Positions 37,334 to 42,977 of a stretch of 47,527 bases of DNA are shown here, in pieces. The stretch's first letter is position 1, and every line of letters begins with the position of its first letter. Both the position numbers and the translations under genes were made by a program. This stretch comes from Halococcus salifodinae DSM 8989 (GTDB lineage Archaea; Halobacteriota; Halobacteria; Halobacteriales; Halococcaceae), in contig NZ_AOME01000015.1 in NCBI RefSeq assembly GCF_000336935.1, positions 153,559 through 201,085 of the forward strand. Direction: 5' to 3'. Below the pieces are notes generated by a model. It was not told the origin of the DNA. It ran no database searches and saw nothing but the letters and a program-made list of their open reading frames with translations.

Positions 37334-37805
37334 CCACTTTTTTACTGCGGGGGTCGCGCTCGCTACGCTCGCTTGACCCCCGCTTGTAAAAACCTGTTCT
37401 GCCGAGCGAAGTGAGGCAGAGCTCGGAAGACGAGCGGTGAGAGGCGCGACCGACGGGAGCGCCTCAATGCGAACGGCGAGGAACGAGCCGTGAGCGAAGC
37501 GAGTCTTCCGGTGGACTAAAAACACCCGCTCGCTCACTCCGTTCGCTCGCGGTGGGGTCGCTGGCACTTTCCGCAAACCGCACAGCACCGCCCAAGCCCT
37601 CAGTCGCTTCGCTCCTTCGCCCTCGATCCACCAGGAGAGCAAAGCTCTCCTGAGCCTCGTGGTTCGAAAATCAGAGATTTTCGTCACTAAGCGGGAGCGA
37701 AGCTGCCACGAGGTCCAAAAGAGCCAACGGCTCTTTTGAAGATCACGAAAGACGCGAAGCGTCTTTCGAACGAACTCGCTTTGCTCGTCGAGACGCCAGG
37801 TCCGC
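37334..37805. repeat. Dispersed hairpin-array repeat, copy 1
   Basis: About 470 bases without a supported gene. It starts right after the TAG stop with CCACTTTTTTACTGC. Perfect stems with short loops follow: CAGGAGAGC-AAA-GCTCTCCTG (37632-37652), CGAAAATC-AGA-GATTTTCG (37665-37683), CAAAAGAGCC-AAC-GGCTCTTTTG (37716-37738) and CGAAAGACGC-GAA-GCGTCTTTCG (37746-37768). CCTCGTGG/CCACGAGG (37655-37662 with 37706-37713) encloses the second one. GGGGGTC/GACCCCC (37349-37355 with 37375-37381) opens the element. Conserved blocks shared with copy 2 are TCTTCCGGTGGAC, AAAAACACCCGCTC, GCACAGCACCGCCC and CCTCGATCCACCAGGA. Confidence 0.85.
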
Positions 37806-37860
37806 GCCGCACCGCCTCGCAACCGCCACCTACTGGTTCACCGCGCCCAGTTCATCAACC

Positions 37861-42556: not shown

Positions 42557-42977
42557 AACCCACCTTTTTACTTCAGGGTGGTTCGAAAATCGCTACGCGA
42601 TTTTCGTCAGTGCAAGAAATCGAAGATTTCTTGCTTGCAATCAGAACGCTTCGCGTTCTGATGACATCACGAGACGGCGAAGCCGTCTCGAACGAGTTCG
42701 CGCCCTCCGGGCGCTCAACCCCTCGTAAAAACCTGTCCTGCCGAGCACAGCGAGGCAGGGCTCGGAAGACGCGAAGCGTCTTCCGGTGGACCAAAAACAC
42801 CCGCTCACTCGCCTCCGGCTCGTTCGCGGTAGGATTGCTGGCGCTCTCCGCACTGTCCCGCACCCGCACAGCACCGCCCGAGCCCTCGCTCCCTCCAGTC
42901 GCTCGCCCTCGATCCACCAGGAAAGCTCCGCTCTCCTGAGCCTCGACTCACTCCGTTCGTCGAGACGCCAGGACCGC
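42557..42977. repeat. Dispersed hairpin-array repeat, copy 2
   Basis: About 420 bases without a supported gene. It starts a few bases after a TAG stop with CACCTTTTTACTTC. Stems with 3-nt loops: CGAAAATCGC-TAC-GCGATTTTCG (42584-42606), GCAAGAAATC-GAA-GATTTCTTGC (42612-42634), ATCAGAACGC-TTC-GCGTTCTGAT (42640-42662), CGAGACGGC-GAA-GCCGTCTCG (42670-42690), GCGCCC-TCC-GGGCGC (42700-42714) and CGGAAGACGC-GAA-GCGTCTTCCG (42763-42785). A last one, CAGGAAAGC-TCC-GCTCTCCTG (42918-42938), has one mismatch. It shares conserved blocks with copy 1, but the hairpin run lies before the block TCTTCCGGTGGAC rather than after it. Confidence 0.85.

Follow-up and report, generated by a model that had tools for sequence, protein, structure and literature searches.

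Two copies of a hairpin-rich repeat fill intergenic gaps in the window, the 47,527-nucleotide stretch of Halococcus salifodinae DSM 8989 (contig NZ_AOME01000015.1) analyzed here, and each copy carries a longer hairpin module at a different place. Does the module belong to the repeat, or is it an element of its own that has entered it? The first-pass annotation had read the array as a cassette that moves or is lost within a conserved frame. The features on which the answer depends are listed by position, with the strand in parentheses.

37334–37860 (+): frame copy 1, filling the gap from an AstE/AspA-like gene (stop codon 37331–37333) to a PALP-family gene (start 37861)
37436–37495 (-): module of a second type (M2), located in the loop of a GGAAGAC...GTCTTCC hairpin of copy 1; its 60 nt include one GAGC repeat
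37660–37773 (+): M1 module of copy 1, 114 nt, with four hairpins consisting of the M1 ends and an inner 56-nt hairpin pair
37686–37741 (+): inner hairpin pair of copy 1, 56 nt, splitting the linker TCA|TCA; a related inner pair is found in locus L099
42557–43053 (+): frame copy 2, filling the gap from an HTH-domain gene (stop codon 42554–42556) to a class-III aminotransferase gene (start 43054)
42579–42695 (+): M1 module of copy 2, 117 nt, with four hairpins consisting of the M1 ends and an inner 57-nt hairpin pair
42609–42665 (+): inner hairpin pair of copy 2, 57 nt, splitting the linker TCA|TCA; similar pairs are found in L340, L342–L344, L346, L354 and L355
42942–42963 (+): module-free counterpart in copy 2 of the copy 1 insertion site, a CCTCGAC...GTCGAG hairpin

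Two modules in a repeated frame

In copy 1 the module lies where it had been described, between the flanks GAGCCTCG (ending at 37659) and ACTCGCTTTGCTCGTCGAGACGCC, and reads TGGTTCGAAAATC...ATCACGA-AAGACGC-GAA-GCGTCTT-TCGAACGA. The positions first assigned to the modules were correct to within a base, the true start (TGG) falling one base earlier. The matching junction of copy 2 is, as had been noted, a short hairpin; it is closed and free of a module (GAGCCTCGACTCACTCCGTTCGTCGAGACGCC, about 42939–42968). The module of copy 2 sits at the front instead, flanked by CTTCAGGG and GTTCGCG, and reads TGGTTCGAAAATC...ATCACGA-GACGGC-GAA-GCCGTC-TCGAACGA. The two modules do end alike, in ATCACGA, a stem with a GAA loop and TCGAACGA. 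Folded as single-stranded DNA, both form four hairpins, with z values of -5.7 and -8.9 and no equally stable fold among 200 shuffles. The site filled in copy 1 (CCTCG|ACTCGC, where the bar marks the junction) is unoccupied in paralogues L038, L041 and L057 and is filled in another species (L154). The site filled in copy 2 (GGGG|GTTCGCG) is unoccupied in paralogues L041 and L047; in L059 and L169 this frame position is filled by the same module.

The frame itself is found in several dozen related intergenic copies in the window's genome. Its central pattern, GAAGCCCTC-hairpin-CGCCCTTCATCC, occurs 28–46 times in each of nine genomes of the same genus; across 391 Halobacteria genomes, matches outside the genus are limited to a few in one other family. 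A plasmid search with frame copy 1 returned only short partial matches, in other genera. The frame starts with a T-run no more than 20 nt past a same-strand stop codon in 37 of the 48 cores examined. Its left part (37334–37400 in copy 1 and 42557–42730 in copy 2) forms a long, imperfect palindrome that begins with T-runs and ends with A-runs, a layout that, judged from the sequence, would be expected of a terminator working on both strands. At the base of the frame, CGAAGCCCTC pairs with CGCCCTTCATCC and CGAGCCCTC with CGCCCTCGATCC, and these pairs covary (GAAG/CTTC versus CGAG/CTCG) among the cores in L031–L069, which indicates that the frame itself is maintained as a stem. Unlike the modules, the frame hairpins diverge continuously between copies.

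The class-III aminotransferase gene following copy 2 is probably hemL. Seven syntenic species have the frame at the same place in the hemL gap, each with its own hairpin tips, and M1 is present there only in the window's species; the six sister species carry the frame without M1. These six gaps, together with many module-free paralogues, bear out the reading of a cassette in a conserved frame. In ten genomes (L108–L116 and L136) a frame lies upstream of the PALP gene even though the next gene beyond it is not constant, being AstE in four of them, and AstE genes that do not adjoin PALP have no frame. Frames may mark points of rearrangement.

Other modules are found in the frame as well. The M2 module of copy 1 has GAGC on both sides, and the unoccupied form of its site, GGAAGACGAGCGAAGCGAGTCTTCC, is found in L066; duplication or micro-homology could account for the GAGC repeat. 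M2-like DNA is present on plasmids of Natrinema, Halalkaliarchaeum, Halomarina and Haladaptatus. In L049, L057, L035, L036 and L061 an inverted M1 lies within a further hairpin module, M3 (TCTCGTGAGC...GGAGCACGCGAAGCGTGCTCC), which is itself nested in frame hairpins, giving at least two levels of nesting. Five loci (L033, L034, L036, L340 and L344) contain a single N, after which a stretch of frame or module is duplicated. These duplications are likely scaffolding artefacts at the repeats, and copy structures beside an N are consequently not to be trusted.

The M1 unit, its distribution and its target

M1 is a double hairpin of 54–66 bp with the layout TGGTT-(CGA stem loop stem TCG)-TCATCA-(CGA stem loop stem TCG)-AACGA. 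Its ends are 8-bp imperfect terminal inverted repeats (TGGTTCGA/TCGTTCGA), its invariant columns are TGGTTCGA, TCGTCATCACGA and TCGAACGA, and the hairpin end has no GTAG tag. The 114- and 117-bp modules of the window are one M1 whose TCA|TCA linker houses a second hairpin pair of 56–57 bp. A six-hairpin form is present in L346, and this form, the inner 56- and 57-nt pairs and the 60-nt M2 together indicate that double-hairpin units of ~57–60 bp recur as the unit of gain.

A search pattern for the two-hairpin form (TGGTTCGA, 9–39 nt, CGTCATCACGA, 9–39 nt, TCGAACGA) gave 70 exact matches within the genus, covering all 10 genomes, and 0 when the pattern was reversed as a control. Among Halobacteria, the M1 skeleton is found in 209 of 391 genomes and in 68 of 86 genera; the reversed pattern gave 0 here too, and looser relatives are under-counted because the genome search required the invariant ends. 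When bacteria and archaea were scanned with a single genome for each species, all 80 records listed were from Halobacteria. A plasmid search returned 31 records in which every named organism is haloarchaeal, M1 is present among Haloquadratum records, and none was found in viral and phage collections. A search for hairpin pairs without sequence constraints, made on loci fetched mostly for other reasons, recovered the same skeleton repeatedly along with a few related ones; the invariance is therefore not merely a product of the search pattern. The search for a cargo-bearing or autonomous M1 found none: right ends lacking an exact left half were sequence variants or four- and six-hairpin arrays, with no coding cargo. 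The two modules of the window belong to one element family, but the element is class-wide and does not form part of the window's repeat. Mapped across related genomes, the module can lie in either orientation, at several positions in the frame and also far outside it, and it is all-or-none at several defined positions rather than always in one.

In plasmid pAArc-Mg-01, a 60-bp M1 splits tnpB-derived sequence (GATGGGG|M1|CCTCTTTG). GATGGGG and CCTCTTTG are contiguous in four plasmid homologues (~88–92 percent identity), with no duplication or deletion of the target. The tnpB copy hosting M1 is already decayed. This comparison of an exact TGGTTCGA...TCGAACGA unit with four homologues lacking it upholds one half of the proposal that the module moves or is lost, namely movement, in the form of past insertion; loss was not borne out. 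No gain or excision at the strain level was seen in the sole same-species plasmid pair, where both strains have M1 at the same site. An insert of another type, a hairpin pair of ~56 nt, is found 28 nt downstream of M1 in the same decayed tnpB copy (L356:2588–2650).

For 16 of 172 M1 contexts, the exact unoccupied 20-mer is present in other fetched loci, compared with 0 of 172 for shifted controls. The edges of the module also have the kind of target-site feature that the first reading had suggested looking for. Of the distinct M1 sites, 46.5 percent have the core CG|CNNCG, versus 0.59 percent of nearby positions, and position +1 of the target is C in 95 percent of M1 sites. This motif test was adopted in place of a direct test of flank palindromes, in which true flanks scored weakly above mis-paired ones and were not always palindromic; "hairpin-tip insertion" consequently holds for many sites and not for all. 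Within the genus, frame hairpins carry the target motif as their tip; one such tip, CGCTCGCTCA|CTTCGTTCGC, is M1-free in 13 loci. M1 adjoins tnpB in L183, L204 and L206, and in the latter two the unoccupied target CGGGGTCAAG|CCCCGAGG is the end of an IS605-type element adjoining tnpB, one site class among several. Because the tips of intergenic hairpins in haloarchaea, like those of IS605-type ends, are rich in the CG|CNNCG core, M1 is often found inside other palindromic repeats, the genus-specific frame included. M1 is probably a non-coding, non-autonomous mobile DNA element that is inserted exactly as a double-hairpin unit.

Stem pairing, rival origins and a possible mobilizer

The stems of M1 change in letter and remain paired. 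In an alignment of 64 distinct units, 98.1 percent of cells are paired and 10 of 19 pairs have changed on both sides, with double-sided changes in 108 cells versus 30 in shuffles. Mismatches in 199 unique hairpins comprise 29 A-C, 18 G-T and 30 others, and the larger number of A-C than of G-T mismatches indicates that G-U pairs are not favored. Three-base loops are balanced by orientation (TTC/GAA 65/56, TCC/GGA 27/31, AAA/TTT 17/14). An identical stem in both hairpins of a unit was found in 0 of 144 units, versus 12.9 expected under shuffled pairing (SD 3.0). We lean toward maintenance of the arms at the DNA level, through arm-templated correction or exchange of whole hairpins; units whose two hairpins become identical would then be lost.

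Strong covariation of stems, and a frame whose T-run begins so close behind stop codons, would also suit a large structured RNA (a 3′ UTR or terminator RNA) in which the modules are peripheral helices, the arms are under compensatory selection and movement is the gain or loss of a helix. We consider this very unlikely, since M1 occurs in both orientations and inside coding DNA derived from tnpB, its loops are equally frequent on both strands, and G-U is in no excess over A-C. M1 is also found in haloarchaea that lack the frame, and an Rfam scan of the window gave 0 matches at the gathering score. Replication error is a different possibility, in which modules arise and spread by template switching between hairpins that are abundant and alike, or by recombination at short repeats such as GCTC/GAGC, with no transposase. 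Loop flips and perfect arm correction do look like intra-strand template switching, and a GAGC repeat flanks the M2 insert of copy 1. Template switching, however, predicts ragged ends and flanking micro-homology, whereas M1 has the same ends in all 68 genera, is inserted as an exact unit and strongly prefers one target core, and an origin by replication error is accordingly improbable.

M1 could also simply be something described in 2011, either the small mobile repeats termed SMR-A in Haloquadratum or PATEs, which are IS605 ends with a deleted core. SMR-A repeats are ~110 bp long, with terminal inverted repeats, no target duplication and a preference for palindromes of IS605-type elements and PATEs (PMC3119063), and M1 for its part is present in Haloquadratum records and at or in tnpB elements. 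SMRs of the same type are nevertheless commonly >95 percent identical (PMC3119063), whereas M1, in this comparison by description only, is normally 54–66 bp with freely varying stems. PATEs are by definition without terminal inverted repeats, which M1 has. An identity with either is a serious candidate, albeit on balance an unlikely one.

The data establish the M1 unit and its ends, nested occurrence and maintained palindromes, as well as precise insertion beside a preferred CG|CNNCG core with no target bases duplicated or deleted; the linker can accept a second hairpin pair of 56–57 bp to give the four-hairpin modules. Mobilization may occur in trans, with a host or IS enzyme recognizing the folded single strand and the short invariant linkers and not the letters of the stems, a proposal to which we give somewhat less than an even chance. 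Hairpins at both ends and the lack of target duplication resemble single-strand transposition by HUH enzymes. The presence of a Y1 transposase does not track M1 (16 of 20 M1-rich versus 13 of 20 M1-free genomes, Fisher p=0.48), and Y1_Tnp is absent from three genomes of the same genus that carry M1. Near tnpA loci, sequence in common with the ends of IS200/IS605 elements was confined to scattered exact pieces, with no paired TGGTTCGA...TCGAACGA. The fuller picture is offered only tentatively: a class-wide family could be recognized by its shape (two palindromes and short invariant linkers) and moved by a shared enzyme; hairpin exchange or arm-templated correction at the DNA level would keep its palindromes perfect and mutually different, and its modules would nest inside one another in double-hairpin units of ~57–60 bp.

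The results indicate that a part of the hairpin-rich intergenic DNA of haloarchaea that is usually passed over is a mobile element with defined ends, a target preference, exact insertion and a class-wide range. The "enigmatic" mobilization of small haloarchaeal repeats becomes testable, and M1 offers a means of studying how the letters of palindromes can change while the palindromes remain perfect. Covariation alone, in repeats of this kind, is not evidence of functional RNA. We claim no benefit of M1 to its host.

Comparison with known small mobile repeats

SMRs, PATEs and REPINs are described in the literature, where we found no description of M1; the elements on record that come nearest to it are the SMR-A repeats, the REPINs and the CGTC-tagged REPs. 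Like MITEs, M1 is short and non-coding with terminal inverted repeats; unlike them, it has a variable interior and no target duplication, and a non-exhaustive search of IS ends turned up no parent transposon. The IS200/IS605 family and PATEs share with M1 the hairpins near both ends, the lack of target duplication and a short target motif. Their palindromes are near-terminal and they have no terminal inverted repeats, in contrast to M1, and the presence of Y1 TnpA does not track it. The CGTC-tagged REPs are head-to-head dimers, mostly heterodimers in several families, with no dedicated transposase and with some copies in palindromes (PMC3733652), all of which recalls M1. However, they are bacterial, with different stem starts and with CCA tails (PMC3733652), and CGTC appears in M1 only as part of hairpin plus linker.

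The REPINs, or REP doublets, of bacteria are likewise mobile, intergenic inverted pairs of palindromes with compensatory arm changes (PMC3116915). M1 shares with them an inverted palindrome pair that moves as one unit, as seen in its mirrored linkers and in the exact 60-bp unit in tnpB-derived sequence. REPINs are linked to RAYT (Y1) transposases, and their REP letters are conserved (PMC3116915), whereas M1 has stems free to vary, no association with Y1 (RAYT-type) transposases and no GTAG tag. SMR-A of Haloquadratum walsbyi corresponds to HqIRS42/43/55, and its mobilization was "enigmatic" to its authors (PMC3119063). These repeats are, like M1, short, gene-less and present in many copies, with terminal inverted repeats and no target duplication, and they too are inserted in palindromes and IS605-type elements (PMC3119063); M1 has both the terminal inverted repeats without target duplication and the preference for IS605-type elements and palindromes. 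The SMR types are sequence-homogeneous and ~110 bp long, in contrast to M1, which is fixed only in its linkers and ends, measures 54–66 bp per unit and is class-wide, a separation made by description. With SMR-A compared by description, M1 works like REPINs and SMR-A and is not demonstrably a member of either.
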